Positions 10,721-54,500 of a DNA stretch of 64,000 bases are shown here, one piece after another. The stretch is taken from contig NC_049988.1 in NCBI RefSeq assembly GCF_000003815.2, positions 1,045,679 to 1,109,678 of the forward strand, written 5' to 3'. The notes under the pieces were generated by a model that made no database searches, had not been told where the DNA came from, and saw only the letters and a list, made by a program, of their open reading frames with translations. Numbering within the stretch: the first letter of the stretch is position 1; every line of letters starts with the position of its first letter. The position numbers and the translations under genes were made by a program. The DNA comes from Branchiostoma floridae. Taxonomy: Eukaryota > Chordata > Leptocardii > Amphioxiformes > Branchiostomatidae.

Positions 10721-10763
10721 AGGTGTACGCTCAAAATGTCAACTTGTTTAAATGCATTGACTT

Positions 10764-22522: not shown

Positions 22523-23698
22523 GGCTCAAGTTACGGTGGATGTAGCTAGTAAACAAACTAATGTGGCAATAAAACAAACAAAATTACACATTATATAAGT
22601 CCGAATTAGTTGAAATGAGAGTATACTAGCTACCATAATATCAATCATCACGGTAATGTGTGCTAAGAGAGTAAAATCTACTCTATTTGTATTTAGAAAA
22701 CTTGTAACTACCATACACGCACACAATTCTGTTCATTGACGACTTATCGTGCTCGCCTGGTGTTTTAACATCCTACACTAGCGACAGAGTTGACATACGG
22801 GACATCAACAGTTAGCCTCGCTCCCCAGGCGTGGGACCAGCGTTCATTTATGACACGACGGGGGACGGTTTCCCTGTCCTTGGTGCTGATTGAATCTCAT
22901 ATAATACTAGTACATACTGGTGCCAGCGTGGTACAGATGGACACAAAACGTTCAATATTAATGGGAGTGTTGAAATTCATTTCTTCGTTTCTGGTTACTT
23001 TTACAAACTCTCTTGACCAATAGCTGTTAAGTTTTCGTTGGTTTTAAACTCTATTTCAACAGGCACACACATAATGCTACTCAACTAGCCTTCATGCTAA
23101 GCATCACACCTGTCAGACATGTAAACAGAACTGTCCTTGGTGCTGAACACTATCCACAAGCAAACATATCTGATCCACACCACACCTTGCAAACATATGG
23201 CATTTAGGCCATACTGATTTGGTCATAAATGGTCACTCTATTTGGCCAAATTCTACTTATAAGTCCAGCGATCTGCGGAACCTGGCAGTGGCAAGAAAAC
23301 AGAAACTATAAAAAACAAAAACAGACACATTTCAAATTTTTTCAGCAAATTAGTTTTCTTTAGTTACACATGGGTTGAAGATACATGTTTATTTTACCGA
23401 CAAAATAGACTTACATCAGTAACTGATCAGAAGTAACATCAGTAACTGATCAGTAGTAGTTGCTGAAAGATTACTGCAACACCAATGCTGAGAGTTCTCT
23501 GCAGTAGTGATATAAAACATTGCATCTCGTAGTGAATCTTGGCTATCTCACTGTCTACATTGTCATTCCAACACTGTAAACGATCTATGTGTTGTAAGGA
23601 GGCAAAAACCTGATTTGACTTCTGCATAAAGCCTGAGTTTGTGAGGACCAATCAGCCAGCATCAAAAAACATTGTCTTCAAACAAAGAATGGTGGTAA
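22523..23698. other. Intergenic DNA upstream of the 300-aa gene; no gene seen
   Basis: AT-rich, without recognisable coding or repeat structure other than short direct repeats near 23412-23450 (acatcagtaactgatcag twice). Confidence 0.45.
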
Positions 23699-27502: not shown

Positions 27503-30500
27503 CTGTGTAAGATAATAGACAGGAGTTATAAAGAAAGTCATCAACGCGGTCAATCAACACTGCTTGATATCACTAGGTTAAACATGAATGTTTGGATAGT
27601 CCAAATACCCGACTTAGTCTAACACAATTAAACTTGAGTAACTTTGAATCTTAAGCTCACGAGAAAAACTGCCTCTTTCCATACTAATCAGAAAAGGGGC
27701 TTTTTGTCAATGAGACCCAGCAATAAGAATAGAACTACCTAGAGCTTTATCATCTTGAACTGTACTTAAAATAAAGGTCTTCTTCATTGATAAGGTTCTT
27801 CATAACGTACAATAAAGGTCTTCTTCATTGATACTGTGATGGATTAAGTAGCTTAGTTTGCCATGTCAAAATCAATATACAGGTACATGTATAATGGTAC
27901 ACCCAAGGCCACCCCACAAACATATCCTTTTTTTTTCTAATTCTATAATTACCAGGTTATCAACCAGGTTAAAAAAGGAGAAATTAACAAAACAAAGACA
28001 AGTTAAGTTTCTTATAACTGGGAGTACAGTGAAGCATTGTTATGTATTTTTTGGTAATGCCTCAAATTATAAAAGGCACCTGCTTTCCAATGGGAACATT
28101 ATGCAATTTTACCATTCTGCCTGATTGAAGATTAACTACATTAAAAACAAATTGGATGCGTAATAGCCAGCAATTACAGATACACAAATTGTGGTCTACT
28201 TGTTGGCAGAGGTAACCTTATCCAGAGGCTAATACAGGCATAGTATTCAGTTTCTCTGCACAAGATTTCATGTACTGTGCAGTCGGAAAACTGGATGAAA
28301 TATACCTGTCATTCATCCACACCGTTATGAGTTGGCTTGCAACAACAAACATAACATAATGAAGTTCATTATGCCTCAGCACTTACAAAGGCAGGGATAT
28401 CTGTGGTCGCCTCCTTTGGTCAATATTGACCATGGTAAATCCTAATTGATATCAGCCCTACAGCGTTGACTATGGCTAAACAGTCCTATACGAGAATGGG
28501 TCATCACAACCACAGTAACGTTGCGGGAATGTTGCAAGCAGTTTATAACGGGACATTTAACGCTACTGGTACTGGTCACGCTATCATAGTCAAACAAGTT
28601 CTAACTTTGATCGTTGGGTGTGGGTTTTAAAACCAGCAAAAGTGTTCTGTTACGAACAGTTGAAACAACACCACACTCACCTTTGGGTCTGCCGAGTTGT
28701 CAGCGGTTGAATCTCCTGTGGAAAACAACAACTTGAGGTGAGTGAAGTTCTGCAAGGACATGTGACCCTCTTAAGGGAATTAAGATTTACCTTTAAATGT
28801 TAAAAAATGGGCCAAGCTTGTAGGGGCAAACAAGACTTACCTGTACAGGGATATGTCACATGAGAATAGATAGTGACAGTACTATGTGTCTTCTACGTGA
28901 CCAGGTGTCAAAGAGGTTATGATGTCACTTATGCATTAGTCTGTGACCAGTTTTTTTAAAGATACGTATGATAATTATATTAATATTTTGGTCATTCTGT
29001 ATCGGGGGGGGGGGGGGGGGGGGGAGGAGGTGTCTAATTTTGGGGCCCCTTCCGTCTTCCTTTGAAATCAGAGAGGGCTGTTTGTGTCTCACATTTTTGT
29101 GACAGGTGGCCCTTGGTGAAGTTGGTCGAAAAATGAAGAAAGTTGATTAAAGCCAGCTACAGGATTATTGCAAAACTGCGGCTGCCTGTTGTATTCGAAT
29201 AACTATAGAAAATTTGTGGATGTCAAGATGTGCAAAATTATGTACAATGTAGTTTCATTGCAGTTGTATGTTACCAAAGTGCTGTATCATCTCTTAACTT
29301 TTAGAAAAAATATTTGTGCATAAAAACTTTGACATCATCCATATGGTCAAAAGGTCATCTTCAGAATTTTGTCATGCCCAGCTGTCAATATTCACTACTA
29401 CTACATTCTTAATTCTATTTGAGAAAACAATGGGGAAGGTCAAAATGCCAATCAAGCCAGGAAGGAAACCTTAAGCACAACTTTTTAACAAAAGAATTAA
29501 ACACGTGCAGACTAGGGCTGCGTACCTAAACATAAAATCAGGTACCGACACAGGTACCAGGCACAGAGGCTTTACATACAGGTACCTGTACCTATACCTG
29601 CACCTGTACCCGAACAAAAATCCCCATTTGAATGAACATTGCGTATAACTATGTGGTCCCTAGAAGTCACTTTGGTCAAGTTTGGTGTCGTAATGAGGTC
29701 AGGAGATGGCTTTGATTTCAAATGTCAGTGTTTCGTTTTACGTCTTTTCCAGTTCTAAAGTTATGTCTTTGTGGTAGGATTTATGCATCTTTCGTCACAA
29801 AATAAGCAAATACTTTTTTTTGGTTTAACGCTATCGGTACTTTGGACTATCGGTACTGCGAGTCCGACGAGTGCCTTTACCTACTTTGGACTTGTACTGA
29901 ATGGATTTTAGCAGTACCGTACTGGTGCAGAGTACCGGTACACAGCCCTAGTACAGACTACTGAATAGGGTAAAACTAAAAGAAAGAAATGAATGCTGAC
30001 TAGTTTGCGACCAGCAGTCGAGCCTGCAGGGGCTGGCTGTGATGGGCGTGGGTGGAAAGACTTGTCTTTGGAAGACTGACGGAGGGATGAGCGGAAGCTG
30101 AAACTGGAGCGTGACGACTGGGTAGAAGGAGCCGCCTCCAGGGCAGGAAGGGCACGAAAGCCTTGGACAGGAGAAGCAAGTGACACAAACACAGAACACA
30201 GGGGGTGGAAGAATGAACACAAGACAGAAGGGGAGGGGGAGAGAAAATACGGAATTAGAGCTCAGAAGGGTGGGAAACAAAATGACAGGCAAAAGTGACA
30301 GAAGAGTACTTCCTGACATGTATCAAGACTTATAAAAACAAACTGATACTTAACATGTGCTTAATGTATAAAAGAGACTTGTTTTCTTGACAGGCGTTTC
30401 TGTTCATGAACATGGAGATCATTAGCATTACATAAATTCGGAAAACAGACTGATCTAAACGCATGACCTGTTGCTAATGTATACGGCAGATGGACATTGA

Positions 30501-33500
30501 CGTATGGCTGATGTATATGGCAGATATACACTGAGCTATGACTGATGTGTGTGCCAGATGGACACTGACCTATGGTTGGTGTGTGTGGCAGATGGACACT
30601 TAGCTATGGCTGATGTGTGTTGCAGATGGACACTGACCTATAATGGATGTGTATGGCAGATGGACACTGACCTACATGTATGGCTGATATGTGTGGCAGA
30701 TGTGCACTGACATATGGCTGATGTATATGGCAGATAGACACGGACCTATGGCTGATGTGTGTTGCAGATGGACACTGACCTATGGCTGATATGTGTGGCA
30801 GATGTGCACTGACATATGGCTGATGTATATGGCAGATAGACACTGACCTATGGCTGATGTGTGTTGCAGATGGACACTGACCTATGGCTGATGTGTGTTG
30901 CAGATGGACACTGACCTATGGTTGATGTGTGTAGCAGACGGACACTAACTTATGGCTTGTGTTAGGGCACATGGACACTGACCAATGACTGATGTATAGT
31001 GCATATAGACACTGACCTAGTGTGGGTTTTGTATAGTGCAGATAGACACTGACCTAGTATGGCTTTTGTATAGTGCAGATAGACACTGACTTAGTGTGGC
31101 TTTTGTATAGTGCAGATAGACACTGACTTACAATGTAGTGTGGCTTTTGTATAGTGCAGATAGACACTGACTTAGTGTGGCTTTTGTATAGTGCAGATAG
31201 ACACTGACTTACAATGTAGTGTGGCNNNNNNNNNNNNNNNNNNNNNNNNNNNNNNNNNNNNNNNNNNNNNNNNNNNNNNNNNNNNNNNNNNNNNNNNNNN
31301 NNNNNNNNNNNNNNNNNNNNNNNNNNNNNNNNNNNNNNNNNNNNTGTGGCTTTTGTATAGTGCAGATAGACACTGACTTAGTGTGGCTTTTCTATAGTGC
31401 AGATAGACACTGACCTAGTATGGCTTTTGTATAGTACAGATAGACACTGACCTAGTATGGCTTTTGTATAGTGCAGATAGACACTGACCTAGTGTGGCTT
31501 TTGTATAGTGCAGATAGACACTGACCTAGTATGGCTTTTGTATAGTACAGATAGACACTGACCTAGTGTGGCTTTTGTATAGTGCAGATAGACACTGACC
31601 TAGTGTGGCTTTTGTATAGTGCAGATAGACACTGACCTAGTATGGCTTTTGTATAGTACAGATAGACACTGACCTAGTGTGGCTTTTGTATAGTGCAGAT
31701 AGACACTGACCTAGTATGGCTTTTGTATAGTACAGATAGACACAGACCTATCGTTGATGTATAAAGCAAATGTATACTGACATATGGCTGATGCACATGT
31801 ACAGAGAAGGTGGACAGACAACACATGGCTGATGTATATAAGGCAGATGTATACTGACCTATGGTTGATGTATAGAGCAAATGTATACTAGCCTATGGCT
31901 GATGCCCATGTCCAGAGAAGATGGACAGACAACACATGTTTGATGTATATTAGGCAGATGTACACTGACCTACTGTAGGGTTGATATGTAGAGCAAATGT
32001 ATACTGACATATGACTGTTGCTGATGTATATAAGACAGATGTACACTGACCTATGGTTGATGACCTGACCTCCACCTCCTCTACACGCCCTCCCCCTCCC
32101 CCGTTCAGTAGCTGGGTGATACTTGTGACAGGGTCGATGTCAGTTGGATCTACTGGGATCTGAAAATAAAACAGAAGATAATTGAACAGGATTATTTTTT
32201 AAGATAAGTAAAAGAGAACATTTACTTCAGACCTATCCCTCAAAAGAGCAAGGGCCAATATTGACTGCACAGCACATTTGACCAGTTGCTGACATCACAT
32301 TTCTGATATAGGCTTTGAGCCAATCAACTTGAGAGGGACCAGAGGACTGGTTGAAAGCTTGTTGGCTGGTACCTCAAGTGACACGGAATACATGTTGTAT
32401 TACACTACATTGTATCAATAGATTGTTGTTATTAACAACAATGTAATTTCATACTTACGGGCTTTCCCTCTACCTCTGGGTCAAAGAACCAGTTCGACTG
32501 AAAAACAATAGGTCATAAATTGAATGATATTATAACCTACATGTATGCATCAGCTCTTTTAAGAGGCTGATAACACATCACACTTTAAGTTTGAATTGTA
32601 CAAAACAGCTGTAAAATGAGCAGATATATGTCATATATTTTAAAACATGCATCAGAAATTTCAAAGTTACAACAGAAGATATGAAAGAAGAAATAAAGAA
32701 TATATTGTTGAAGAATACCAAACATTGCAAGTTAAGTCATTTTGTCAACCATCCTGACCACATAGGCAAACTTTTTTCTGGGAATTTCTTTTCCTGCACA
32801 CTACACTAAGTACGTTAATCACTACAAAATGCACAGATGCAACAATGTCTGACATGGAGGGCAATCTAGTACAGTAGAAGCCACTTGATTGCACAGACCC
32901 CATTTGCCAGTGTATTTCGTGCAATTATCCGAATGGTGCAACAATGCAAAGTTATCTAGCTGGACCGCACCGGTTTGGGATTCCGTGCAGTTAACAGAAG
33001 TGTGCGATTATCCGTTTAACTGGCTTCTAGTGTACATGAAATTAAACATGTCTTACATGTCTGATGATGCTCTCCACTATCCGACACTGGTCCGACATGT
33101 CCTGGATCATGATGGCCATGTTATCCTGGGTCGTCCTCACCAGGGTGGGGCCAAACACGATGGCTAGGTTCCGCACCTCCATCTGTGGGTGGGGAGACAA
33201 GAAGCACACATGAAGGAACATGAATATTGCTGACACAAATACTTGTTTAACAACAAGAATAATTTACTCCTAGATGAAGCTGCTGTATTGTGGGCATATT
33301 TCCTACATGCCTCATATGGACGGCAACTGTCTTGTGTGTGTGTTCCTTCTTCAGGTCTCAACTATTAAAGATTCAAGTGCTAATCTGTTACTAAATCAAG
33401 AATAGTAAATGCCAACATGTTCTGATTGAGTTCAGTCAAAACAGTATAACTGAATACATTTATGAAGGTTAGACATCCAGGTAAACAATATACAATTCAA

Positions 33501-36500
33501 TCTCTACAACTGGGTTAAAAACGGAGAATTACTTCTGGACGTTTCGAGTGACATCCATCACTCTTCTTCAGCTCTTTTCAGTATAACTGAATAAACATAG
33601 ACTTATGCACAAAACATACACCCTTCTGATGTTATTGAACATTGAACATTGAATCTTACAAATAATTTTCTTCCACTGAAGTTCCAGTTCTTGATTCCTG
33701 GTGCTAGATTACAGGTACGTACTTAATGTATATGATCAAGATCAAGTTGCAACTATTTGAGTCTTTACCTTGTTGATGTAAGACTTTGATGCCACTTTCT
33801 TCAGGTGGCCAACTAGGAACTTCAGAGTTTCAAAGTGGTGATCAGGCAATGCATGGACCTGTGAGGAGATAACAACAGTTTTAGTGTTCCATGTGGTTCT
33901 ACAAATACATGTAAAACCTGATGCATGCAAGCACAAACAATCAAATTTAAACTTCTCGTACATAATGGAGTAGTAAGACTCTTCTAGTGTGAACAGTCCA
34001 GTGGGTAGCAGCCCTGCCTCTGTAACTACTGTAGATTAGCTTTGATTTTGATTTCGGCTGTGTTGGTCCCTGACATGCACGCTACCGGAAAGGATTGTAG
34101 TTCTTAGTTAGGACAGGACATTACGCAGTGGTCTGCTGTTTATTGTGCTTGTTGAAAAGAGTTAGAGGAATTTCCCGGTACAATGAACCTGCAAAACTTA
34201 CTACAAAGCATCTGTCTTCTCACGACTAAGTAGGAGAATAGCTCTCCAATGAGTTAACCTCTCACTTTGACTTTTGCGAATGCTTATTGCTGTCATTTCA
34301 GTATTCTCTACTGACTGGAGTACAATGTTGTGTGTCTAACAAACGTACCAGTTCCCGGAGTGACCACATTCTTTTCCTGGAATCCTTGTGTCTGTTTGCA
34401 TCAATAAATCTGCCATACATGTCTGTGGTAAAAAACATCAACAATATCAACATCTGCCTCAGATTCTAGCCATGTTAAACAATGAACTAACACACTAGCT
34501 AACAAGGATAAACAATAATTATCTACAAATGTATATACAAAGTTGTTTCCCTGGTACACAATAGGGGAGGGTATACAAAAATGTATTTTCTTGGTGGACC
34601 AACTAGTATAGATGGGCAAAACACTGTGCAATATTGGTACAATCTGGGATAATATTTAAAAAAAAGCATATACGGCAAAACAGAAGATTTATCTAAGCCA
34701 TCTCTCTCTCTCTTTGTTATTATCACATTCATGACAAATAAATTATAGTGTTTGCCTGTGTGTGTGCCGACTAGACCAACTTGACATTTCCTAAGGGATG
34801 TTCTTAGCTCTCCATGTTACACTAGTCAGGACATTGAAAACAGGGCTCATATCAAGGACACAAGACTAATGATCTGCACAATGAAGGACTTACGGTTGGT
34901 GACCAGTGGATCTGGAAGTTTACGGAAAAAAGACTTCAGGAGAGAGCTGATGATGTTGGTGTCACCCCATTTCTGAAAAGGAGTAAAGTTTTGAAAAAAT
35001 AAAAATTAACATTCAAAATACAATACAGCAACATAAGTTATTTTCTTCTATTGGGGGAGGCAATGTCGGGCAAATGTTTGTGGGTGCCATGGAGGTTTCA
35101 GTAAGTAGTGAATGAAGGTCAGCACCAAAAGTAGTCATTCTACATGGCAGAAATCAGGCCGCTATTGACATTACATGTAGGTGATTTGCAAAGTACTTGT
35201 TCATGTGTGCTGTATGGACTCTCGTAAGGAATCAGCACCATCTGCCCAGAACAGGATTCGTATTCTACATCTTTTGAAACACAACAGCTGAATGAAGGCT
35301 AGAGTTTATGTCATGTGGGTGTTCCCGACCAGTCAACATGGCCCGGGGTTAAAACCTGTATTTCATGGACTTCCATTGAACGATTTGAATGTACATCCCT
35401 TGCCCCACGTTTACTGCTGTTAAAATTTTGAATACTGGATTTGGACTTTAGAAAATAGAATTGATGTTGTTACCATTTTTGTAGGACACCAAATCTTCTC
35501 AACATTTGGCGCATTTTGCATTGAAATGTATGTTTATTTGGGTGGATGTGCCATAAATAAAATACATCAGTGTTGTATTCTGTAAATCACATGAATGTGA
35601 CTGTCACAGTGCAGGTATACGCACTCAAAGAAAAATTATAGTGCACTTTATTTTGTTCTTGCCATGCACCTGATATCCTTTCAATCAGGAAGTGGTGCTG
35701 TGCAGGTAATGTTTTGAAAGTCATTCTAAGCAATTTTCCTAAAAGTAGACCACAGATTTCCATCTAGACTTCTCCCTAACTCACCTCATCGTCCAGGTTG
35801 ATGTTTTCGATGCCTTTGTTGAGCTCCTCCTGAAGGTGAGCCACTCCTGAGGAGTTCCCAGGAATCCTGTAGATGCCGATGACCTCCAGGCCCTTCGCTT
35901 CCACAATCGTGCAACATAGCTCCACAATAAGGGGTACATACTGCAGAAACAACAGGTTACAAGTTCAGAACCTGCAACATAGCTCCACAATAAGGGGTAC
36001 ATACTGCAGAAACAACAGGTTACAAGTTCAGAACCTACAACATAGCTCCACAATAAGGGGTACATACTGCAGAAACAACAAGAGACAAGTTCAGAACCTG
36101 CAACATAGCTCCACAATAAGGGGTACATACTGCAGAAACAACAGGTTACAAGTTCAGAACCTACAACATAGCTCCACAATAAGGGGTACATACTGCAGAA
36201 ACAACAAGAGACAAGTTCAGAACCTGCAACATAGCTCCACAATAAGGGGTACATACTGCAGAAACAACAGGCTACAAGTTCAGAACCTGCAACATAGCTC
36301 CACAATAAGGGGTACATACTGCAGAAACAACAAGTTACAAGTTCAGAACCTGCAACATAGCTCCACAATAAGGGGTACATACTGCAGAAACAACAAGTTA
36401 CAAGTTCAGGACCTGCAACATAGCTCCACAATAAGGGGTACATACTGCAGAAACAACAAGTTACAAGTTCAGAACCTGCAACATAGCTCCACAATAAGGG

Positions 36501-39500
36501 GTACATACTGCAGAAACAACAGGTTACAAGTTCAGAACCTGCAACATAGCTCCACAATAAGGGGTACATACTGCAGAAACAACAGGTTACAAGTTCAGAA
36601 CCTGTGTAGAGCTGTGTGTATTCACAGAGAACCTCATGTTTATCTAATCACTCTACATGCATGTTAGATTTTTCAACCCCATAAACGGGCAAAACAGAAA
36701 AACATAATGATTGTTCTTGCTCATGTGTGTTCTTCTTCTTCTTCTAATCCCTTATCTTTCCAGAAGGCACAAGGCCACCTTAATGGCGTGTGTGTGTGTG
36801 TGTGTGTGTGTGTGCATGTGTGTGTGTGTGTGTTGGGGGAAATTTTCACATAAGATGGGAATTTGGGGCTTCAGGATAGTCAATACAACTACATGTACAG
36901 AATGGTTCGTGCTCAAGGAAATATTCTTGCATCTATCAGCATGTACCTTAAAGTTTATTATTCCAGTAACATAATCATCCCTCTCTCATTAAGAATATAA
37001 CCTTCACAGCTGACACAAAAATTTTCCAAACTGGAAACATGATGATGTACAGTTGTACAGTAAATGCATTTAGGTTTCTGAGAAGGAGAAAATGGACTAT
37101 TCAATGTGGTTTTGAGTTTGTGGTAGCATTATAGTCACATATTTGATGCTTCTATCATGGAAAGACAAACGCCTCTAAGGATGGCAAGTTGTAACCCAAC
37201 TACTTTTGACCCAACAAGGGTGCTATGGAAGGACAGGACAGTTGCCTTCAACACATCATACTTAAATTTTACTTATAATAATACTGTACAATGTATAGCA
37301 CATACTTGTTATCAAATACTTAGACAAGAGGGTATTCAGCAGGCAAAAGACAGAACTTTTTGTAGTGGTTTTGACTTCGCAGTTAAGAGGCTACATATAA
37401 CATAAAACCAGAGTAAACATAAATGCATTTACAGTATCAGACACAGCTATTACAAACCTCGTTGGAACCAGACGGTGTACACTCTTCCAGATGGACCCCA
37501 AACATCCCAATAGGTTCTGGTGATGAGGAGGCCTTGGGACCAAGTTTTCTGAACCACTCCTTCCAATTCTGCTTCGTCTTGACTGATCCAACATAGTCCT
37601 CAGGGCCTGGAGGAGAAAGGAATTATTATTATTATAGAAATGATGTACATATATAACAACATCTGCTCAAGTCACTAGGATGTATTTTCACACTACAGAG
37701 TTGTCAAGTTGGCAGTTTAACATACATTAAGTCGGTGTTGACTCAATCTACTTGGACTAAGTGACTTTTGAACCGTCTTGCTTATAAATATCAGTAATCT
37801 TCCCCTATTTAGCACAAACCAATCAGCGCCCAGATTGCGCTTATTTGCAAAATGGCAGACATACAGTGAACTGCGTGAAGAGCTCAGAAAAACTGTTTGT
37901 TAGAAAAAATAATGTTTCCTTCGCATGTTTCTTTGGTATTCGGTGGTGGCATGGATGGTTTTCCGATAAACAAATGTGAACACAGTAAGTGGGTATACCA
38001 TCCAAGGTTATATGCCATTCCTCCAGTTACTGTAGGTTTAGCACAAGAGACTAGACCAGTTTGACTTATTACAAAAACTCAGATGAACTTTCATGCTTCT
38101 CTATACATGTTTTATTCCTAAACTGAACACAGTGCAGTACGTCTAACATTCAGACAGTAACCAGTATGTTACGTCGATGTAGGTTAGACATCCAGGTAAT
38201 AAGACACGCCAAAAAGTAGGTGTTCCACCCATTTTTGCATATAGATTCATAGTTAGGTCTTAGGATAAAACTGTTCAACTAGATCTCTTTTACATATCAA
38301 TTCACAGCTAGGATATATAAACCCTCTCCAACAAGATCTCTTCAGTGTCACTGACGAAAACTACTGGATAGTAGTTGAAATGTCTGACCGTTTCCAAAAC
38401 CATATCCAGTTGCTTGAGTAACTTGAGTAACTGTACTTTTTGGCCTATGTGAGTTACCTTTGATGGCTTTCCTGAAGGTGGAGGGAGAGGGTTGGGAACC
38501 TTTGGGGCGCCTGGTCAGTCCCCGTAGCTGGATAGTGGGGGAAGGCGCGGCCCGCCCTGTGGCCTGGGGGCTAGGGGAACACAAACAACAACAGTCTGTC
38601 AGTCAAAATGCTCAGGAAAAGTACATTTTTATCAGCATTTACGATGTATACAATGTCATGTATGTGCCCAGCAGGGTAGCCAGCCTGAAATCATTTTCCG
38701 TCCCCTCGATTTTGAATCCTATCAAGCACCCAAGGTGTACAAAAGGTTCAACATTCTTAGTGGGGTCCAGGGTCATGCTCTCCCCCAAAATTTTGAAATC
38801 CAGACCCTGTAAAGCGCTATTTCCTACATTTTGAGATGTAAATTTTGCTAGTAGACTAAGCTGTTCAGTGGCATCTGTTTTGATGAAAAATTACACAAGG
38901 GAGATAGTTTTATCATATCAATACATATTGAATTTTGTCTGTAACAGAGGACAGAATTAGCGAAATTTTTTTTCTGTCCCCAGCTGCAAAATTCTGTCAA
39001 AGAACGGAAGGATGGGTGCTGGCTACACCCCTGGTGCACAGTAGATTATAGAATTTACCATTTCAATGGAACATCCATAACTGGATAGAACTAGGAGGAA
39101 ATAATACACACAAGAAGACACATGCATGAAACAGATGTAGAGATGGATACCTTAAGAAAAGTTTGACAGCACTCCTTACTATTATCCTAGGTCTGAAGAA
39201 GAAAGAAGAAAGGTAAGAGAGGTAAGACTGAATACGTTGCAGGATCAAAGAGTGATACATGCACACTGCAATTCAGTCTGGAGTTACATAACAAGAGCTG
39301 TATCACCCCTCTAACATAGAGTAAAAACACATCCTCCATATCAATTTTGGACTTCCAGATTAATTCAGGAGAATTACTAACCTTCCTCATTTGAAAATCG
39401 ATTAATCAAATGAGTTAACATTTGCAAGTATGGTATATCAAAAGGTAATTAATATCTAGATTGCAATTAGATGTCTCCAGGAACAAAGCAAATTCTGGAG

Positions 39501-42500
39501 AATTTTGGGAACCTGAGCCAGAATTCTGGCTCTGAGCGATACAGAAAGCCAGAATTCTGAGAACCTGAGCCAGAATTCTCAAAAAAATACTTTGTTCCTG
39601 GAGACATCTTATTGCAATTTACATATAAATTACCTTTTAACTTACCATACTTGCAAATATCAACTCATTTGGTTAATCAATTTCGAATGAGCAAGGTTTG
39701 TCTGGAATCAATCTTGAAGTCCAAAATTAATCTGGAGGGTGTTAAAAAAGACTTTTCGAACAATCAAGCGACATAGAAAGCTCGTTAAATGTTGGTAGTT
39801 TTCAACCTCATTGAACAGTGACAATGCACACTGATAATATGCACAAAACATGTGCCATTTATATCAAATGTGCAACTTAACATGAATGGTGATTAATACA
39901 CAATATACTGTCACATCAAATTCTAAAGATAGAGCTTACAAGAATGAAAAGGAGAGAGACAGGATAAGAAATCATACAGGAATCACCAAGTAGACAAAAT
40001 ATGTCCAGTTCTTCTGGTAAGACATTGTTAGTTCTGTGGCTCGTAAGGGGTGAAACTAATCTCCAAGCAGATCCTACAATGGCATAAGATAGTATCAATC
40101 TGGCCAAGGAGTGTAGTCAGCAAAAGGGTGTTCATTTGCCTTGCCTTCATTTCCCGGTAGCAAAACACACCCCTAAGCCGGCTTCACTCCTCTGCCAGCT
40201 TTTGATACCATCTTATGCTACCGTAGGATCTGCTTGGAGATTAGGTGAAACATTATTACCTCCAGGAAAAATGGTTCAGGAAAACAGAATGCTTCTCAAA
40301 ATACCTCTACAAGCAAAACAGAAAGCAGAGGGACACTTACACAACTCTCAGACTAGAAGGGTGCAGGAGGAAAGTCATGGAAGAGAAGGAAAAACAACAC
40401 ATAAGCTAAGGAAAAACAGCAGAATGCAATCTGAATATCTGATATGTACCATTTGATTAAGTTACTTGTAATAATTACGTGTGTAGGTGCTGCGGACAGC
40501 TTAAATCATTGGTGTGTAACATTACTAAATGTACCTACTGGGACAGCTTCAGTCACTGGTGTGTAACATTACTAAGTCAATAAATGTACCAAACTAAACC
40601 TACCGGGACAGCTTGAGTCACTGGTGTAACATAACTAAATGTACCTACTTTGGACAGCTTCAGTCACTGGTGTGTAACATTACTAAACATACCAAACTAA
40701 ACCTACATTGTACAATGTACTACAGACAGCTTGAATCATTGGTGTGTAATATTACTACATGCTAACCTACATGTACATGTATGCTGTGGACAGCTCAGAG
40801 TCACTCAGGTACAATGTACAAATCAGCCCCAGCTGTCATTTAATAATATTCAGTTGCCTATTATTATTCATGACATGAGTGCACTACTATGGCCTGGTTG
40901 TGGCATGTGTTTTTTATCACTTGGCAAGAAGAGAGATCTGACTCACTTCAGAAGATCCCCGTACTGCGTATGTCTCTTCAGGATAAGCTCACGGCTGCCT
41001 ACTGCTTCCTGAGATAAAGGAAAATATCAATCTATGGTTAGAAATCTAAGACAAAATCCTGGAAACAGGATTGATTGATGATGCCTGTCCTGAGGAAATC
41101 TATGTTTCAGGGAATTAGTATTTATGCAGTGGTTTTCACTGAGGACAGAGACATAAATAAACAGTGAAGAAAATGTTACATAATGTATCTTATGTGAAGA
41201 ACATGTGCTTTCATGAGAATCTCAAAACAAAGATGCTAATATTTTCAACTTTTTCCAGTGCTGAATTTTGATCTTTGTGGTAGGAATAACAGGCTTTAGT
41301 AACAGAGTAAGTCAAAATGTTTAACACTTCGGTGTAAGTCTATTATTGTAATTGGTACAAAGTACTGGTACACATCCCTACCCTAAACTGCTTTCAAAAA
41401 AATGGAGCCAGACTTACCTCATCATCCTGTGCAGAGTTGTTCTGGATAGCTGAGATCCAGGACAGCATGTCATCATGGTTCTCAGCCTGGCAAAAGTCAT
41501 ATGAGCAGGATTGGTATCATTAATTACAGGTAACACTATGTACATGTCAGGGCAATATATCTGAATAAGGGATTTCTCAAGCTATCAATTTTTTCTTGTC
41601 CCACTCATTGTTTTAGAGCCCATTTTACATTGAGAGATCTGTCATTTCAAGCTAGCAATATGGCATTTTCATCAGTTTCATGTCAAGAAGTTCAGATCTT
41701 TTTAGACAATGGCGTGTACCAGATATGCTGGAAAAGGGGGAAATGTTCAAGTGTATATGGAGAGAAAACTGAGAACCGTTATCAAGGAAGCTGTCTAAAT
41801 CTAGTGTGCATTCCCCAGTCTACCAGCGCCTCCTAGCAGTCATGAAAGGAAGTGCATGACAGAAGGAAAACTGAAAAACATGCCAGCAAAAAATAATATT
41901 TTTCCCCCCTATACTCTGTTCAGAGGGAAACATGAATATTAAAAAGTACCTACCTGAAACAGATACTCGACACAGTTGACTGTGCTGTGAGTCAACAGCC
42001 TGAACACATTCTTCCTCTTGGTGTAGTCATACGCGATGTCCGGGATGCTCCCCTTTATACTAATGGGGTTCTCATCTCCTACTGCAACAGTCTGGGAACA
42101 GGAAGGTGTCAAGGTCAAGGTCAATACATCACAATTACTGGACTTTTCAACTTCTCTCTTAGGCCATGTTGATTTGATTACATGGAAGACATCTGCGCTT
42201 GCATTTATTTACATCTGTTTCAAACGAAAGTTCTTGACTATACAAAGCAGCTGAAAAATGAGCAAACATAAGCCAGATATTGAAGAAAAAAAATTGGAAA
42301 GCAAAACTAGACGGGGCCGATACCGACTGTCAAGCACCTTTGACCCTTTGGCCTTTGCTGATGTCACACTTCTGGTCCGGATGTGTGACTTAGGCTTTGG
42401 GTCATTTCAACTTGATAAGGATCATACAACTGATCAAAAGCTTGTTGGTAAGCAGTTTATTTTGTGTATGGATAAGGTCTTAAAATTGTAACATACATGT

Positions 42501-45500
42501 GATGGTAAGCAAAATGTTGGAGAATGCCAAAGACAATTCCTAAGACAAGGAAGTTGTGAAACAACAAAAATAAGTTCCTTGCACGACAGGTTATCGAACA
42601 GTAACACCTACCAATGGTCCAGTTCTTCTGTCCTTGCAGACGTACAACATGTGTCCTTTCAACACTGCCCAAGCCTCCTTCCACTTTGCACCGCTTACAC
42701 GCTGCAAGACCCGTACACAAGTTAGTGTTGGGGGTTGCTCTGAGATACATGTAATGTCTAGTGATGCATTCCTGTGTACACATGTTCAGGTTTTCATTTG
42801 TGTTCAGAGGTTCAGGTACAGGTTCAGACTGTTTGCACCCAAACTCACACAGCATAGGTGTTCAAGAAATACATTTTTTGGGTTACTCGCATTTTAGCAT
42901 TAAGATTACGTTCAGTTTGAAGAATATTGAATGCAAATTAGTAAATACAGCAAAGCTCAGCAATTTCTTTTTTTTTTTTCTGGGTCAAATTTCAAAATCT
43001 ATGGAAGGTTTAGATATAGGATGTAGGTAGAGTCAGTGGGTTTTTATTGACTGTGTCTATGGCACGGTATAGGTACTGGCGGAACCCATCCCTCTCTATC
43101 TAACGTCTTTTACCTTCTCAACTAAAGTCAGGTACCCACTCTTACACCCGGGTGGAGTAAGGAAAGTCGTGTAAAGTGCCTTTCCCAAGGGCACAAGATC
43201 AGTAGCATGACAGGATTCAAACCCAGCACCACTGAGTTCTGGGCCTCAAAATACCATGCTGTTAATAGTGTTATACGGCATACAAACCAACTAACTGTTA
43301 AAGTATCTGGTGAAAAATTGCTGAATCCCTTACCTTTCCTTTCTCATTAATGGACAGCCTGTAGTTGAGCCAGCCCTCCTTGATAACATCAGAAGCAGTG
43401 ACGGCCACGGGTGCTGACTCTGAGGACCTTCTCACAGCCAGGCTTTCCTCTGTCGCTTCCTGGATCTTAGGGGTCTGTCAAGAGTAAAGCAGACATCCTT
43501 AATCATTGAGGTGAAGCATGATGCTTTCTCCAGTAGCTAGTAGTACAATGTGGTTTTGTTACGGCTCGTGTGTTTTAGCCAAGCAGACTGAATCAACCCT
43601 AATCTTCTGGATAAGAGTGTTGGGTGCTTTTACGTACAGAGGTTTGACGCTGGAGGCTTATGCCGGTTGCACCCTCATACACAGGGCCGCTGGCTTATGT
43701 CTATGTCATCATCTGAAGTGATGACTACATTCCCTTACAACATGTCTAAGATGGGGCCAACCTTAGGACGGAACACTGCCCTTTGGACAGTCTGAATTAG
43801 ACCCATATGGTTAAGCAGTGGGGTTGAGCTACCAGTTGCACCACTGGGGCATGCCAAAGTCCACATAATGTAATGTGACAAATATACATTTTATCTCTGT
43901 GTCTGTACTAAACATTTTTTTGGGTACACCATGTTAAACATAATATGTTACATTTGCTACAGAACACATCTTCTAACTCTAAATTACAATGATCAATTAC
44001 AAAAAAAAAGAGTTCAAACAAAAGAATTGAAGATAGAAATACAAACTTTCTTTTGACATTCAGAAAAGCAATGGAAATGGAAACTTACATTTTCTCCAAA
44101 GAAACTCTTAAGTTTCCTTATGCTGGGCATCCTTTGTGGAGTGTGATATCTGAAATAAGAAATTCACAACTATAAGTCAAAATTCTACTTGAAATTAACC
44201 TGCAAGCAGAGTCTTAAACATGCACATCTTCAGGCTCTGTTGACACTGTCCATATCACTATGAGCTATAGGGATTGACATTATTTTTGCTTCATTACACT
44301 TTGAGGCCAAAGAAGTAGTTTTTTGGTTTGATTACCTGACTGCACAATGGTGGGTCAACTAAAATATAAGTTTTTTTTACCGAAAGCATTATCTAAGACG
44401 TTATCAAAAATGTCAGTACGCAACTCATATCGAAGACATGCACAAGTGTCAACAGGGCCCTTGCATGTCTGAAAAAACTATTACACATGTATGTGAACAC
44501 TAGCAGGAATGTGGAACAGAGAAAAAAATTATCACGTGTCCAAGTGTTCTAACTTACGGTTCTTTGTCAGTGAACACATCGTCCCCTTCTGGAGTCAGCT
44601 GGTCAGCTTCAGGTGATGTGGCCATCAGGTAGGAGGAGCGGCGTGTGCTGCGCAGCTGGTCAGCACCTGAAACAACAAGTAAGAGCTCACATTATTACAG
44701 ATATTCCACCTGTACAACGCCTCCTGTAGATCTTTGGCATTCAAAGAAATGATTATTGTCAATCAGAAATTGTTTACCAAACTTATACTCACCCAACCCC
44801 TCTTTACAGAAATGGATTATAACAACTTGTAAACACAGCACAAGGCAGTAACCCAGTTTACGTCTACACTTTTGTATACTTGTTAGGCCATGTTGATTCA
44901 ATTATATGGTTGACATCCTAGATGGGAACCCCCAAATCAATGGGAGCTTACAAAGAAAAAACCCCATTTCATGGCAAAATCAGTTGCCTTCATAATGAAA
45001 TATAACTCAGGAAAACACAAAGTATAGTATATCAAAAATTATCATAATTAATATTAATATTCTTCTTGTTCTTTCTTTTATGCTGGAATCAACTTTGGCA
45101 CTCTGCCATAAGTCTCCTTGTTCTGATTTTTTTCATAGCATGTAGCAATAATCTGTCTCGGTGCGATTTACAGTTTGTTAAAAAAATCATTCCTTAAAAT
45201 GGAAACGGATGGTATTATATCATATTTCGATCCTTGTGCAGTTGTCATCCATGTAATGGAATAAAGATGGCCTCATTCTGTATCTAGACAAGAAATGCCC
45301 CAGCTTTTAAATCTAACACAGAGACCAGGAAGGAAGCTCCAGTGAATAGTAACAGGAAGTTTCAGCAACTACACCAGACGTTCTGTCATGCTAGGCCTGC
45401 ATGTACATGTATGTGTGCCGATATCAATTTTTGATAATAACTAGCTAAAAATCATAGACTTGATACATGTATTAGTAGGATGTATTGGGAAATTGGGCAC

Positions 45501-48500
45501 ACCCTAGCAGTCACAAGTTTAAATTCTAACCTATCAACACCAGTTGACTCTCCCTCCTCCTATGAAAGTGTAACCCCGAGGTAGAAAGCCTTGCCCACTT
45601 TAGTCCGTGATGGGGCCCATTGGGGGTATCTATTTTTTTATTGATCATTTTTTCGACTTAAAGCAAATTTTGTATTTAGCAGCTGCTTTGTATGATTTAC
45701 AGCATGGTTGAAAAAGTTTTTTTTTTAAACAGATGAAACTGATGCATCATACTTCTGAAAATCAGTAGGTGAAGTGCTGAGAAAAACAAGGGTGAACTGT
45801 GATCCGAGCTTTGGGGGTTGTGTTCTTCATGCTATAAAAATTTATGAAGACCTAAATGTCAGATGAGGAATTTGTTTGCAGAAACTTAAGAAAGATTAGT
45901 GCAAACCTGGCTTTCAACTGAGCAAGTTGATCTGTACACCTCAGATCACAGTAATTGTCTATATTTATTTTTTTCTTTTCTCTCTCACCTAACATTAACA
46001 ATTGTCGCCTGCAAAGTGATGATCACTATTTTGGAAATTTGGCAGACATTCATGAAAGGCTTAATACTTGTCCTAAAAAGTGTACCTTATTTCTGGGTGA
46101 GGAACAGAACAATATCAACCATCATCAATCCTTACACGTATATGTGAGCTGAAGGACATACCTGAGTTAACATTTTTCTCCCTCAAAACCACCACCGTGT
46201 GATCGTTACTGGTATTGCAGGAAGCTGAGGTGTTGTCAGCTTGAGCAGCAGCAACAGAGCAGGTTACAATGGCCTGAGCATGAGTCCCTGAGCTTAGCTT
46301 GGAAGTCATGTCCATGGGGAGAGCTGCTGCATGCAAATACAAGTTAGTCAGGATTTAAAGTGCAAGCAGGGTTGCTTACGGATTAGTAAGCCATTGACAG
46401 CCATTGTTAACAATGTTGTACATGTACCAATAGCAGCAAGTTTTCACCATATAAAAGTAAGAAAGTGTACCAAGTGAAGGAGTACGTGTAATATGTCTCA
46501 TCCAGTACTTATTAGTCTTTTGTATATATAGTAGATAAGTTTTGTATAGTTCTTATACAAACTGATATCAGACAGTTGTTTATCAATATATCAAAAGGAT
46601 GCATTATACATTTTATCATAGGCATGAATGTGTCAGAATGCCCGAGTAAGGTTTTGCTAGGATAAATTGCAAAAGGGAGCATTGAAAGGGAGCGAAGCAG
46701 AGAGTGAGGGGGTGTGGTGTTTCACGGTGTATAGTTTTAAAATACTTCATAGTACTTAATAAATTTTATTGTACCCACTGGTCCCACATGCATGAAATTT
46801 ATCATTCAGTACTCTACTAATTTCACAAAGTACCTGCTAATTGAATCATACAATCTCAGCAAGTTGCTGCATATAATGTGTCTGACACAGACTGCTGACA
46901 TGTGGCGAAGATGATGATGATGATGACAAGGCCTTACAAAAGTTTGGTTACGATAATATCAAGGGCAATCAGAAAAACTTTATGCGTTATGAACAATTGA
47001 CTGTCTTAGTGTGTTTATCGCACCTCATTCATGCCAAAAATATTCGAGATGAATGAAGTGTTGATACTGAGATACTGACTAGAGTAATATGCTTCTTATC
47101 GCTATTTGTAGCGGATGTAGGTGGCCCTTTTGCGGCGAGAACACAGCTTTGTACTGGTTGTGTAACAGAAAATCCTATGTTCTACCAACCTTTAAATCAT
47201 TTGGGGATGTACCCTTACCTGTTAAGCTGGATGTCAATCCTCCCGAGCTGCTTTTCCTGACGTTCACAGTCAGAGTCTTTTTCAGGTTGGCACCACTGGC
47301 TGTTGTTCTCGCACTACCTGCCTCCATCGCGTGGATGTACGACTCCTTTCTCACTAACGAACTCTTTTTTCCTGACGAATCTTCGTTAGCTGGGACAGAA
47401 ACGGATGCAATCTCTCCGTCTGATGTCACCCGCACCCTGGTCGCGTAGTGGATCCCGGACATGTCCACCTTCTGATCTGACGTCTCTGGTACAAACGTCT
47501 TGGTACCGGTGGATTGGTCAGAGTCCTTCTTACCTTGAAGAGGATATCTCTTAGGTTCCCAGTCCGTGCTATGCCTCTGTATGGTGGGTGTGGAAGCTGT
47601 CTTCTGAACCCTCGTCTCGAACTGTGCAGTCCTGGCTGCGACTGTAGTGGAACTGACGGGTATTCTTTTGGCCGCACTTCTGCTTTCCACATCCACCGAG
47701 GTCTTCCTGCCTATCTCTGGGGTGTACCCTGCTTGTACGTCCAACGACTGTGCCTTGGGGATCTTGATGTGGATAGTCTTTCCCCCCGTCTCCCTTCTCT
47801 CAGTTGTGACTCTAATTCCGGCAGTCGGATCAGATCTTACGCTGGACACGCTCTCTTTGCTGCCATACACTCGCATGCCTTCATCTATCTTGCGAAGAGA
47901 GTGCTGCTTTCTCTCGTCTTTGTCACCGCGTGGACTGCCCCCCCTCCTGTAGTCTCCCAAATGTCTGAGATGTGAAGTTTCTCTGTTACTAGAGTCTGCG
48001 ACTGGCTCCGACGAGGATCGAGAATGATCGGGTTTTAGATGCATAGAACTCCTGTGTGCCCAACGTAGCTCGTTCACAAAGGATGACTCCTCCCTCGCGT
48101 TACTTCCTCCAGCCTCCTGTTTCCTTATATCAGTTTGTGAGCCCATACTTGTCGATTTGGAAGCTGTGGTGTCAGTTACTTCTGAATTTGCAGCCGACCG
48201 TCCGACCGTCGTATCTATGACTGTATTTCCATCCTGTATCCTAAACCGTACCTTCTGTGACAAGGGTGTTCTCCTCTCCTGCGGACTGTACCCTTGAGCT
48301 TCCCCTATTCTCTCAAATCTTTCCACCATTTTGCCCAAAGCCGACTCCGAACTTCTTCGAGAAATCTCACTGTTCGAAGACTTAAAGCGGGCATCGTTTT
48401 TCCCAGCTACGTCCACTGAGGTGGAACTCCCTCCACTGTCCCTACTTCTGATACTGGACAGGGAACCCGTGCTTTCTGCAGCCAAGTCCGAACTTATACT

Positions 48501-51500
48501 TTGCTGCCTAAGAGATGCGTACGAGGCAGACTGCATCCTGGCTAGGCTCTTGTTGGACTGGATGTCCAAACTGGGCGGACTGGGAATCTCCGCGGCGCTG
48601 CCTCGATATGGGTCACGGAAACCGCTGTACGCAGAGTTCTGGTAGGCCTGGTGGGGGAACAGGAAATAGAAATGACAGTTAAAACAATAGTCTACTTTCT
48701 AGCAAGTGCATTTTTAGTGTAACGGGCCACTACGTTGTCATTTGTGACCACCACGCTAAAATGAGGACCACTACATGTATGCTATTTCTCAACATTTACT
48801 TGTTGAACAATGTCAATTAAATATGAAATATGAATCGATATACCATGATATGCCAAATTTACATCCTAGTACATCCAATTTCTTATTATTCTTAGAAAAG
48901 CAGGTCCAAATGATGCCTGGACACATGCCAGGCTGAAAGCCTGCAAATGTCACCCGATCACAGATAAGGTAACCCAGCAATGAACTCTGCAGTTATTACC
49001 AATCCTGGTAGGTGGAGCTGCAACACAAACACACATCCCAGCCAATGGGCACTTGTAACACTAACAGACAAAAGCAACTGATTGGCCAGAAGTAACAGAA
49101 GTGAGAGAATGACTCACCAGCTGTAAGACATCTTCATCTTTAGGCACCACCAACAGCTGTAGGTTCTCTTTACTGTAAGACAAACAAGCATATTGGTTGT
49201 TTCAAACAGACACATCAACGAAGAGTGTTGATTCACACTTCACACAGGTTTGGTCCAAAGTTTCACTTAAGCAGACAAATGCTAGAAGACTTTGCTAATT
49301 GGGAGGGAACTATTTATCAGGATTAGAAATTAAACAAGTTTTCACAAATCTACAGGTTCTATTGGGCAAATATATTGGTAATTGTAACCTCTCAACATTT
49401 TACTGGTCCAAAATTTAAAGTTTAAGATAAGATAAAATAACATAACGACAAGGATAGGCAGCTAGGACTGGGATTGTGATTTATGCAGGTTAGCATACCA
49501 ACATCTACCCAAATCTCACTGGCGTCATCCAGCAACTACAAGGCGACATGTATCAGCAAATGGGCCAATGGCTTTAACCCTGGTTACAGACACATCGAAA
49601 TGTACAGATTCCTCCCAAATCATGCTGATCCCCATGTGACACATATTAGCGGTTATCAGTAAGTCATAAGCCTTACCCAAAAATGATCACAATGATTTGA
49701 ATTTTGGTAGACATTCATAAAAGGCTTTATACTTTACAATTATGCCACAAAATTTAAGTTGCACACCTCGTGAAGACAAGCGTATGGATCACCCCTCATA
49801 TGAGTATACATATAGTCCATAGTGAATTGATATAGTATGTACTTCTCCACAAGTTGTCATACCTTTGCTGTATCAGTGCTATGACTTGAGAGTACGTTTT
49901 CCCTGTCACACTTTCTCCATTTACAGACACGATCCTGTCTCCTGTAGAAATAACAAGTAAAAAAGTGCAGAGTCATTCGCAAGTACAACTTGTACTGTAA
50001 TGCATTTAAGTTTGCTGAGATTCAATTTCGCAGTAGGGGGAGAATGGAGTGTTCAGAGAGTGCTTGATAGCACCTACTGTGCAGTATTGGGAACACAAGC
50101 ACCTTTGCAGACAGCCAGTTGAAAACCATTGACTTGCAACTTGGTAAGGCGTTACAGATGGACAGAACAGCACTTTTGGCTGTAATCTAGTGTCACTGAT
50201 CTAATAATAACAATTATTCTGTCTATCGTATGTGGAGACGTAGCATGATTTCTTTAGAGAAAAGTGGTAGAGATGTATTGGCCTATGAACGAGAAAATTG
50301 CATCAGGACATGACATATATAGTACATTGACAGCCTCATCTTAGGTCAAGCTGTGTTGCATGCCTACCTGTGTTGAGTCCTGCCTGCTGTGCGGGGCCTC
50401 CCTCCTTCACATGCTTCACAAAGATGGTGTCCATGGGCTCCAGATTACTCAGCTTCCCACTCTTCTTCTTCCTGATACCTCCTGTGGAACAAACAGGATC
50501 ATTTTAGGGCCAACACTCTTAACAGTCACCACAAGGATTCTCATCTCACAACATTACAACTTCTCCAAAAACCAGTTACTCAAGCAACTGGATATGATTT
50601 TGGAAATGGTCAGACGTTTCAGACAGCCATCTGGTGTCTTTCGATGGCTGTCTGAAATGCTTGACCGTTTCCAAAGTCATAATCCAGTTGCTTGTCAATG
50701 AGTAACTGGTTTTTGGCGTATCTTATTATCTGGATGTCTAATCTTCATCGACGTATTCCAATTTCTCTTCACTGTTTCTGTGTGTTTCTACCCATGATAT
50801 TTCTACTTTAATCATTTAAATGGGTGTATACACTATGTTAATGCTACAACTCACTAAGAGACTATGTATCATACTATGTATGTATGTATGTATGTCTACT
50901 GACATGAAGATGTGTTTAAACTTTAATAGACATATTGTATATCAGTATAAGCCTTTTTCTTACCTTCAGTATCTTCTGGTGGAGGACCACCTCCTGCTTC
51001 ATACTATACAACAAAATAATAACAGGTTAAAACTACATGTTCCATCATCAAGTATTAAAAAAACTATTATAGAATTCTTGATGAATCTTAAAGGCATGTA
51101 TTGTAGAATTTTTGCACCAAAACTGCAAATCTGAATTTAAAAATCCCCATTTCAGACTGACATATGGAAGTAATTGTCAACATATTTGCCTCATTCTAAT
51201 TATAGGAGCAAAATTTACAAGGCCCTTATCCTGATGCAAAAATTAAAATGTTTCTATATACATTTTGGATATATTTGTCATCATGAAAACTTCATTTCTG
51301 AACTGAACTGAACTTCCAAACGGATTTATCTGAACCAGTCCTAGCAAGGTGGATCTGTAACGGTTTCTAAATACATGTATTATTATTTTGATTGTAAAAT
51401 TAGTTTCTGTTGGGGCAAGTTTGCATTGTGACCATTTTATGACAAACAGATAAAACCAGTTGGAGTTTTGCATCATTTGCATCATTACCCTATGGTAAAC

Positions 51501-54500
51501 AACGTAAAACTAAAAGCAAGTCGCGCCAAGTTCAACATGACCACATTATAAAAGGCATGACTAATGTATTGAGTAGTTCAATAGTCAATGACATGGACTG
51601 CATTATCAACAGTAATGGGCCAATGCATAAAACTAAAACAAAATCACTATAGCTAATTAATTCACCTGTGATTTACAAGTGACAATCCTGCGATTCAGGT
51701 GGTACATTATTGTAATTTGTAGTACTTTGTACAGTAGGTCCTTAGTGAGATTGTGGTACATACCTGTAGATGTTCCTGTACGGCAGAGTCGGGAGGGTAC
51801 ACGATGAAATGACGTAAGGTGAAGCCGAAACCATCCCCACATCTCTTCAGGTTCACTGTCCTGGGGCCAGGCCATGAGGCGGGGTCATCCAGGGATATCG
51901 TCTTCGTACCCGACTGTGGAAAACAGAGAAGTGAATGTGACTGTTTGAAAATTGGTACCCGACTGCAGAGAACAGAGAAGTGAATGTGACTGTTTGAAAA
52001 TTGGTACCCGACTGCAGAGAACAGAGAAGTGAATGTGACTGTTTGAAAATTGGTACCCGACTGCAGAGAACAGAGAAGTGAATGTGACTGTTTGAAAATT
52101 GGTACCCGACTGCAGAGAACAGAGAAGTGAATGTGACTGTTAGAAAATTGGTACCTGACTGCAGAAACAGAGAAGTGAATGTGACTGTTTGAAAATTGGT
52201 ACCTGGCTGTGGAAAAGAGAGAAGTGAATGTGACTGTTCGAAAATTGGTACCCGACTGTGGAAAACAGAGAAGTGAATGTGACTGCTTGAAAATTTGAAA
52301 TTAAGAACTCCTACATTCAAAAGAACTACTGTAAATGGATATAGGTTTGCGGGGATTTAATTTCGCAGTAGCGGGGAAAAAACTTTTTGCAGTGGTTTTA
52401 AGTTTGCGATAGCACCATGCACTGCAGTCTCTTACTGCCATGGAAACATTAAACCACCGTGAAAGTTTCTGCATTTACAGTAATATGTTCTTGTGTTGCA
52501 GAATGGCTGCATAGATTAGAACTTGTTACATATGATAGACAGTTGACATGTCAGGTACGTTTTATGCATGATATTATTGCAAGGGAGCCCAAACCTACAA
52601 CATGTCTTCCTGACATCAAAAGCTATCTGCCACCAAAACGTCAAAACCACAGCATGTCCAGCACAAAATCTACAAAAACCAGAAGCTCTGCTGCAGTGCT
52701 AAGGTCGGTCACCAGGGAGGCCCAAAATCGATCTTGAACTTCTGGCCCACATATCCAATATCACTGATAATATGCTGACAAATTCCCAAAAACACAGACA
52801 CACATACATGCCAAAAACAATACCCTCATTCTTCATGGAGACAAATCCAACCTACATTGTACTTGGAGAAACAAGAGCCTTGAAGAGGCTAAACTGGTCC
52901 ATAAAAACAATAATTATCAAGAAGGACCTGGTTTATAGCCATAAAACAATTGAGTACTGTAAATGCAGAAATGTTCGCAGTTTTTGCGGTTACCAGTTCA
53001 CCACAAATTTAAACCCACCGCAAACATTTTTCCATACCATAGTTTTTGACTACAGTCTATGGTGCTACCGTAAACTTAAAACAAAGCGAAAGCTCCATTT
53101 TCCCGCTAACGCGAAATTAAATTCCCGCGAACTTAAATGCATTTACAGTACTTAAACTCGGATAACCTAAAGGAAATTCTTACTCAACAAACTGTCTTTG
53201 TCTCTCCTTTAAGTCTATCCTTACCCTTCCCTTGGATGTACCATATTTAAATTTGTGCTGAGTGATAACCCAAACAGAAGCCATGCCCAGAGACTTCACA
53301 CTACAGTGCCCTTGAAAATGGTCAAAGCTCCAAGTGACAATGTTCCAAAATGCCATGTGTAGGGAACGGGTTTTCTGCGCGTGGAGAATATGCGCGTGCG
53401 CGTGAAAAATTTGCGCGTGAAAAATAAAGTTCCTGAAATATGTCAGAAAATGTGCAGCAAGGAATTATAAGGCAGAAAAATTTGAACCTATGATATAATT
53501 TCCCATCTGTTACCTGAATTTTGGGTTTGAAAAAACCCTAATTTTTAGATCCCTTGGGAATAGGTTAATTTGCATATTTTGAACATTTCAAAATCACCTA
53601 AATTTGACAGAAATACATGGAAAAATGACTCATATGAGGTTTTATATTGTAAAATGTAACAATTTGAGGCTTTTCTCCATTTAAGAAGCTTCATTTTCTC
53701 TTTTTTGAAGAAGATTGTTTGACGCGCAAATTTCAAGCTTTTTTGCGCGTGAAAACTTAACATTTAAAAATCACTTTAAAATCACTCAGATCGAGATTTT
53801 GTACTCAATAATGCAACAATATGATACTTAATTCCATTTTGTGCCATCTTGTTTGAGCTTTTTAAGTATAAAACTGCAGAAACTTTTTTAATCCCTTGGG
53901 AATCAGCTAATTTGCATAGTGTCACGCGCAGATTTTTCACGCGCAACTTTTCACGCGCAACTTTTTCACGCGCACAAAACTCCATCCCCATGTGTACCCT
54001 GACCTGACTGAAATGACCACATCACATCTTCTGCTATCCTAATTACGCACAATACCTGTAGTTTCTGTTAGAGGATTAGAAAATAGGTCAGACCTCTGAT
54101 TGTGCTGAAGGTCTGTCATGGTTCACAAAAATCCAGTTCTGTCACATCCACAACAACTTACCAACATGGTTCTCCAGCAATTCTTCTCTACCACCGTTCT
54201 ACCACACCATTCAAAACTTCCAACCCTGACATTTCCATTCTGTTGTGGTTTTTACGCCTTGGCAAGTTGGAAACAATGACTTTCTACGTGCACTTTCCTG
54301 CCCCTCCCCACCACTGATGGCTTAGCCAAGTGTCAGATGACACCAGGAGGAACAAACCATTGAATGCATCCAGAAAAAACAATAAGCAAAAGATGTTCTT
54401 CAAACTAATTCTTTATGCTAGCGGTGCTACGCTTTTGTTGAATCATAGAACTCATGACCTGGATTTTACTTAGGATTGTTTGTGTCGTGTCCAAACGAGA

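Follow-up and report, generated by a model that had tools for sequence, protein, structure and literature searches.

Three minisatellites lie across exon edges of one gene of the amphioxus Branchiostoma floridae and belong to a known class of repeat, the amphioxus mirages: tandem repeats spanning an exon–intron boundary, described in the Adh3, TnC, globin and PGBD5 genes (mirage passages of PMC3087553 and PMC3902484). The gene is ARHGAP21-like and runs on the minus strand of the stretch analysed here (64,000 nt of contig NC_049988.1, positions 1,045,679 to 1,109,678; hereafter the window), which is part of an assembly of 513,431,437 bases in 431 contigs. What is new is a rough rate for such arrays, together with further examples of them, and our small sample suggests that mirages are common in this genome. 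The presence of three in one gene is unsurprising or mildly surprising. A high birth rate of minisatellites combined with tolerance of those that arise very probably accounts for the three arrays, rather than a device of the ARHGAP21-like gene, in which they are probably neutral.

In the explanation we favour, small tandem duplications of about 34 to 63 bp would have crossed an exon edge by chance, and unequal exchange or slippage would have enlarged the resulting arrays. A duplication over an acceptor or a donor would leave an intact splice site beside an intact exon while the additional copies would join the intron and be removed with it, provided that splicing uses the exon-proximal site. 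The arrays may have survived, and may halt a few bases into the exon, because the intact proximal site leaves the extra copies intronic.

Position and units of the three arrays

The initial annotation of the window had placed minisatellites with units of 49, 63 and 34/37 bp at two acceptors and one donor of a single ARHGAP gene. Tandem Repeats Finder (TRF), supplemented by inspection by eye, located all three at those edges and returned the same unit lengths, the third edge being less certain than the others (Table 1). By the TRF limits, array 1 extends 8 nt into exon 51764–51913 and array 2 extends 31 nt into exon 35785–35940, and every unit of array 2 carries 31 nt resembling the start of that exon. 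Array 3 appears as overlapping TRF rows of 34, 37, 44, 81 and 111 bp over 30464–32028, among them 34 bp × 16.2 and 37 bp × 11.0; by eye, the repeat can be followed past 32028, across the donor and over about 12 nt of exon 32051–32159. An assembly gap (31226–31344) sits inside the array, so that its true copy number may differ from the one seen.

Between positions 20,000 and 52,295, no further array with a unit of at least 10 bp reached a TRF score of at least 100, the next candidate being 23413–23458 (score 85). Elsewhere in the window, positions 744–16920 hold nine merged TRF arrays with scores of at least 100, some next to assembly gaps; no predicted exon edge fell at any of these in a scan that missed array 3 too.

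The units had also been described as unrelated in sequence and the arrays as independent in origin. When unit similarity was compared with shuffles, pairs 1–3 (0.60) and 2–3 (0.22) were no different from the shuffled sequences, in line with that description, whereas pair 1–2 was marginal (0.023), the visible common stretch being a TTCTGCAG-type acceptor. Among the matches listed in genome searches, the array 1 unit (at least four matches) and the array 2 unit (at least six) were found only at this locus, every match lying within the array concerned.

Splice-site copies and the true exon edges

Splice sites were scored with a simple in-house position matrix based on consensus frequencies. In-register acceptors were present in all eight units of array 1 (seven of them extra; scores 5.6–7.4, real acceptor 5.6) and in all eleven units of array 2 (ten extra; 2.5–5.4, real acceptor 2.5). 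Array 3 contains 21 AG|GTCAGT donors, one real and 20 extra, all scoring 2.9; these occupy 21 of 41 core anchors, and some anchors are doubled within one unit. The earlier statement that every unit carries the splice site of its edge is accordingly correct for arrays 1 and 2 and too broad for array 3.

The copies equal the real sites in score and could be used, or selectively kept, as alternative exons or regulatory decoys. A few would leave the reading frame open: in array 1, two of the seven extra in-register acceptors (147 and 342 nt added), and in array 3, the extra donor nearest the exon (81 nt added). The remaining five extra acceptors of array 1 lead to a stop, as do 19 of the 20 extra donors of array 3, and all ten extra acceptors of array 2 hit a stop at codon 12 when read on from the phase-0 start. 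In array 3, moreover, conservation of the donor core barely exceeds that of the remaining unit (0.91 versus 0.85, and 0.96 versus 0.95), even though the units were anchored on the core, and the G at −1 belongs to the more variable positions, being retained in 62% of aligned 34-mers (n = 8) and 79% of 37-mers (n = 14). Use or selective retention of the extra sites is therefore very unlikely. That most extra copies in all three arrays would break the reading frame if used speaks for chance birth and tolerance; we infer that steady use of most copies would damage the product, so that splicing favours the exon-proximal site or else such losses are tolerated.

It is also conceivable that the true exon boundaries are at other positions, in which case the arrays would be ordinary intronic repeats close to exons. 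Arrays 1 and 2, however, overlap exons backed by homology. Exon 51764–51913 has no Pfam match of its own and matches the ARHGAP21 structure PDB 2yuy_A (E 3e-12), and the exonic part of each array 2 unit is RhoGAP coding sequence. On the other side, the exon preceding array 2 has a weak donor (37458, score −0.1), and at edge 3 an alternative donor at 32070, 19 bp upstream, scores slightly higher than 32051 (3.5, phase 0, versus 2.9, phase 1) and was the choice of the gene finder. A Pfam search with exon 32051–32159 gave no match. The exon predicted to follow, 28681–28715, is in phase with 32051 and not with 32070: this exon scores 16.9 with a lead of 2 and 13.7 with a lead of 0, and because the better reading requires phase 1, we take 32051 as the true donor, with some doubt, edge 3 being the least certain of the three. 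The lead-2 reading of this exon also appears to resemble human ARHGAP21, which is a second reason for preferring 32051. Overall, a displacement of the edges away from the arrays appears highly improbable.

A genome-wide RhoGAP search returned two places in the ARHGAP21-like gene, window positions 35794–35934 and 33745–33885, the second being the match of the exon that precedes 33057–33182. Exon lists for the gene are approximate. A list of 20 exons was merged from several predictions, the limits of 42600–42690 and 37450–37600 being estimates, and the chained gene model is wrong in places (exon 35785–35940 is cut).

Junction arrays elsewhere and their placement at exon edges

To obtain a rate, we used a sample drawn without regard to arrays, consisting of RhoGAP loci (the best 30 of 41 matches, each extended by 1.5 kb in both directions and merged into 24 stretches that total 82,190 bp) and of four blocks of 50 kb placed at round coordinates. 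An exon finder trained in-house gave 58 and 51 exons at threshold 15, all of them predictions, with 218 edges. Arrays accepted by eye lay across seven of these edges (3.2%, confidence interval (CI) 1.3–6.5%), and four of the seven were backed by homology (1.8% of edges, CI 0.5–4.6%). The seven comprise six independent cases listed first and the second array of locus L006, added after reading. With 44 edges in the ARHGAP21-like gene, a number estimated from predicted exons, three or more arrays would be expected with P 0.167 at the rate of 7/218 and P 0.047 at 4/218. The argument that chance placement of three arrays flush with exon edges is unlikely is, in that form, not supported by this comparison. 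The gene at L006, which is RALBP1-like, itself has two acceptor-side arrays inside 1.7 kb, and multiple arrays per gene are therefore not peculiar to the window.

Several further places were seen and left out of the rate. At L052 (189–603 of G000:C2:31967400-31968330), a kinesin motor exon (Kinesin E 5.1e-20) is preceded by 2.7 copies of a 151-bp unit with three in-register acceptor copies, and much of the 5' part of the exon is duplicated; this locus had been chosen since its domain-table rows looked repeated. An array at L021 that ends about 10 bp before an acceptor went uncounted, and two C3 arrays (L038), placed in repetitive coding-like sequence, were not accepted as junction arrays. Repeated partial exons were sought by eye in the domain tables, which score best candidates only and in which a unit must span some 25 coding residues or more to be detectable: there was one such place in 134 kinesin matches and none in 142 myosin or 41 RhoGAP matches.

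Placement was compared with random founding by collapsing each array (score at least 100) to about one unit, dropping it at random so that it did not lie wholly within an exon, and counting how often an edge was covered. At threshold 15, arrays covered edges four times in the RhoGAP loci (2.29 expected, 10 arrays), five times in the blocks (2.17 expected, 24 arrays) and once in the window (0.49 expected, 10 arrays). Including the window, the totals at thresholds 12, 15 and 18 were 11 versus 5.61 (P 0.014), 10 versus 4.95 (P 0.016) and 8 versus 4.30 (P 0.050). The window's contribution to these (2, 1 and 1) is an undercount, since the finder detected array 3 at none of the thresholds and array 1 at a single one (not 15), and the observed counts include the two C3 hits. 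An exon-mask test made earlier, at other thresholds and with the window included, had given 4 observed versus 1.10 and 0.89 expected (P 0.024 and 0.013); two of those four were the doubtful C3 arrays, and the collapsed-array test supersedes it.

A number of these observations weigh against an origin by chance birth and tolerance. Outside the window at threshold 15, the finder count of 9 is about twice the 4.46 expected (P 0.038), so that a preference for junctions is possible. All three arrays of the ARHGAP21-like gene stand at edges, with P ~3e-4 under uniform founding, a post hoc figure in that the gene was chosen because of the pattern. The rate itself leans on predicted exons, three of the seven cases (L007, L034 and L048) being without exon homology; the RhoGAP score at L003 is under the curated cut-off (E 6.8e-5), and in the 34-bp array of L006 only the last copy has a good acceptor. 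Finally, use of the proximal site, on which tolerance would depend, is presumed from the genomic sequence.

The first two of these points are what would be expected if splice junctions actively seeded tandem duplication, as the initial annotation had proposed as one possibility; polypyrimidine tracts, R-loops or forks stalled at exon edges might be responsible. At the remaining thresholds, 12 and 18, the counts outside the window were 9 versus 5.10 (P 0.075) and 7 versus 3.95 (P 0.106), and arrays accepted by eye numbered 7, 7 and 5 at thresholds 12, 15 and 18 (P 0.25, 0.16 and 0.36). In this small sample a twofold preference of arrays for exon edges is therefore possible, not shown, and seeding is not established.

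Motif counts in the genome bear on the same question. Motif triples were counted against a built-in backwards pattern, the counts being of overlapping matches, not arrays. The word TTTCNNCAGG, three times at 30–60 bp spacing, gave 84 matches versus 8 backwards, as seeding would predict, but single TTTCNNCAGG sites were already about fourfold commoner than the backwards word in the sampled sequence (25 versus 6). Neither TTTTYYCAG (28 versus 35) nor AGGTAAGT (100 versus 83) showed a clear excess. For CAGGTRAG, three times at 28–58 bp spacing, the count was 5271 versus 24, and for CAGGTAAG 1586 versus 10; CAGGTRAG looks like a repeat core and not like donors, because the T that is common after real donors is rare (just 100 for AGGTAAGT). 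Since repeat families and repeat cores dominate, the motif counts leave seeding unsettled. Weighing the edge counts and the motifs together, we regard active seeding as unlikely, and chance birth with tolerance as the better account.

The same counts yielded some separate observations on repeats. The donor-like CAGGTRAG/CAGGTAAG is a strikingly frequent minisatellite core, seldom with the donor T. Arrays of L018 (24 bp × 44) and L006 contain CAGGTGAG. Many AGGTAAGT triples share a total length of about 110 bp although they are spread over many contigs, a pattern that would suit a single dispersed element bearing the array.

Table 1 Arrays and exons of the ARHGAP21-like gene in the window, and junction arrays at the sampled loci (L numbers)
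Feature	Position	Strand	Remarks
Array 1, 49 bp × 8.0 minisatellite across acceptor	51906..52295	-	TRF score 661
Array 2, 63 bp × 11.0 minisatellite across acceptor	35910..36604	-	TRF score 1299
Array 3, 34/37 bp minisatellite from donor	30464..32051	-	TRF to 32028, remainder by eye
ARHGAP21-like exon, start of PDZ region	51764..51913	-	Phases 0/0; acceptor within array 1; gene finder
First RhoGAP exon	35785..35940	-	Phases 0/0; acceptor within array 2; Pfam PF00620 E 2.1e-9
Exon with RhoGAP domain end	33057..33182	-	Pfam PF00620 E 0.0011, under curated cut-off
Exon after RhoGAP domain	32051..32159	-	Probable donor AG|GTCAGT at 32051, trailing phase 1; gene finder
Predicted next exon	28681..28715	-	Lead 2, fits donor 32051; gene finder alone, without homology support
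L003 junction array	2737-3071		Donor of RhoGAP exon, 94 bp, 4 donors; Pfam RhoGAP E 6.8e-5
L006 junction array, 34 bp	1443-1539		Acceptor; exon RhoGAP E 9.7e-19
L006 junction array, 157 bp	2740-3121		Acceptor; RalA-binding protein 1, PDB 2mbg_A E 1.5e-11
L007 junction array	2765-2894		Acceptor, 44 bp, 3 copies; L012 is the same locus
L034 junction array	9351-9663		Donor, 31 bp, 10 copies; predicted exon
L036 junction array	4707-4900		Acceptor of PAS exon, 104 bp, 2 copies; PAS_3 E 1.1e-8
L048 junction array	5454-5945		Acceptor, 99 bp, 5 copies; predicted exon

Significance and comparison with known mirages

If 1–6% of edges carry arrays, the genome would provide numerous natural experiments on spliceosomal choice between neighbouring identical sites, as many as 20 of them, and on whether intron gain via tandem duplication is frequent. 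A stronger reading holds exon edges to be roughly twofold hot spots for minisatellites, with a few per cent of edges affected and thousands of genes carrying stacks of competing splice sites. We consider this reading doubtful; were it true, the arrays would amount to a mutagenesis experiment on splice-site choice set up by nature, and new introns and exons could arise from them at any time. Among the literature titles searched, a collection outside which most subscription journals lie, we found no mirages in an ARHGAP gene and no genome-wide mirage rate.

A minisatellite with multiple donor sites in IFI6 has reportedly been described by Turri and co-workers, in a study listed among the references of PMC2572611. 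Like array 3, it provides several donors, which in IFI6, to judge by the title, serve the transcript. Splice signals are likewise copied within a gene in intron gain by tandem genomic duplication and where repeats alter human gene structure (PMC3087553, PMC4974935 and PMC2812944). Unlike intron gain by tandem duplication, the arrays of the ARHGAP21-like gene show no new intron or exon, and the duplicated edge remains one edge.

The closest counterparts are those that the initial annotation had named, junction-spanning minisatellites at an amphioxus Adh gene, reportedly the subject of Canestro et al. 2002. Membership in this class is borne out by the mirage passages of the two papers cited at the outset, which cover Adh3 and more loci. 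As in Adh3, TnC, BflGb6, BflGb9 and PGBD5, the unit in our arrays lies over the boundary; many of the known mirages carry a splice signal, and both sides of the intron occur. Their units, of 10–72 bp in Adh3, 150–160 bp in the globins and 60 and 108 bp in PGBD5, bracket the units found here (PMC3087553, PMC3902484). For some known mirages, RNA demonstrates normal splicing and the repeats are unstable in length, whereas the arrays of the ARHGAP21-like gene are known as genomic sequence; in Adh3 and the globins, the repeats leave mRNA splicing undisturbed (PMC3087553). In these passages two mirages are reported for PGBD5, with troponin C cited (PMC3902484), as against the three present in the ARHGAP21-like gene.

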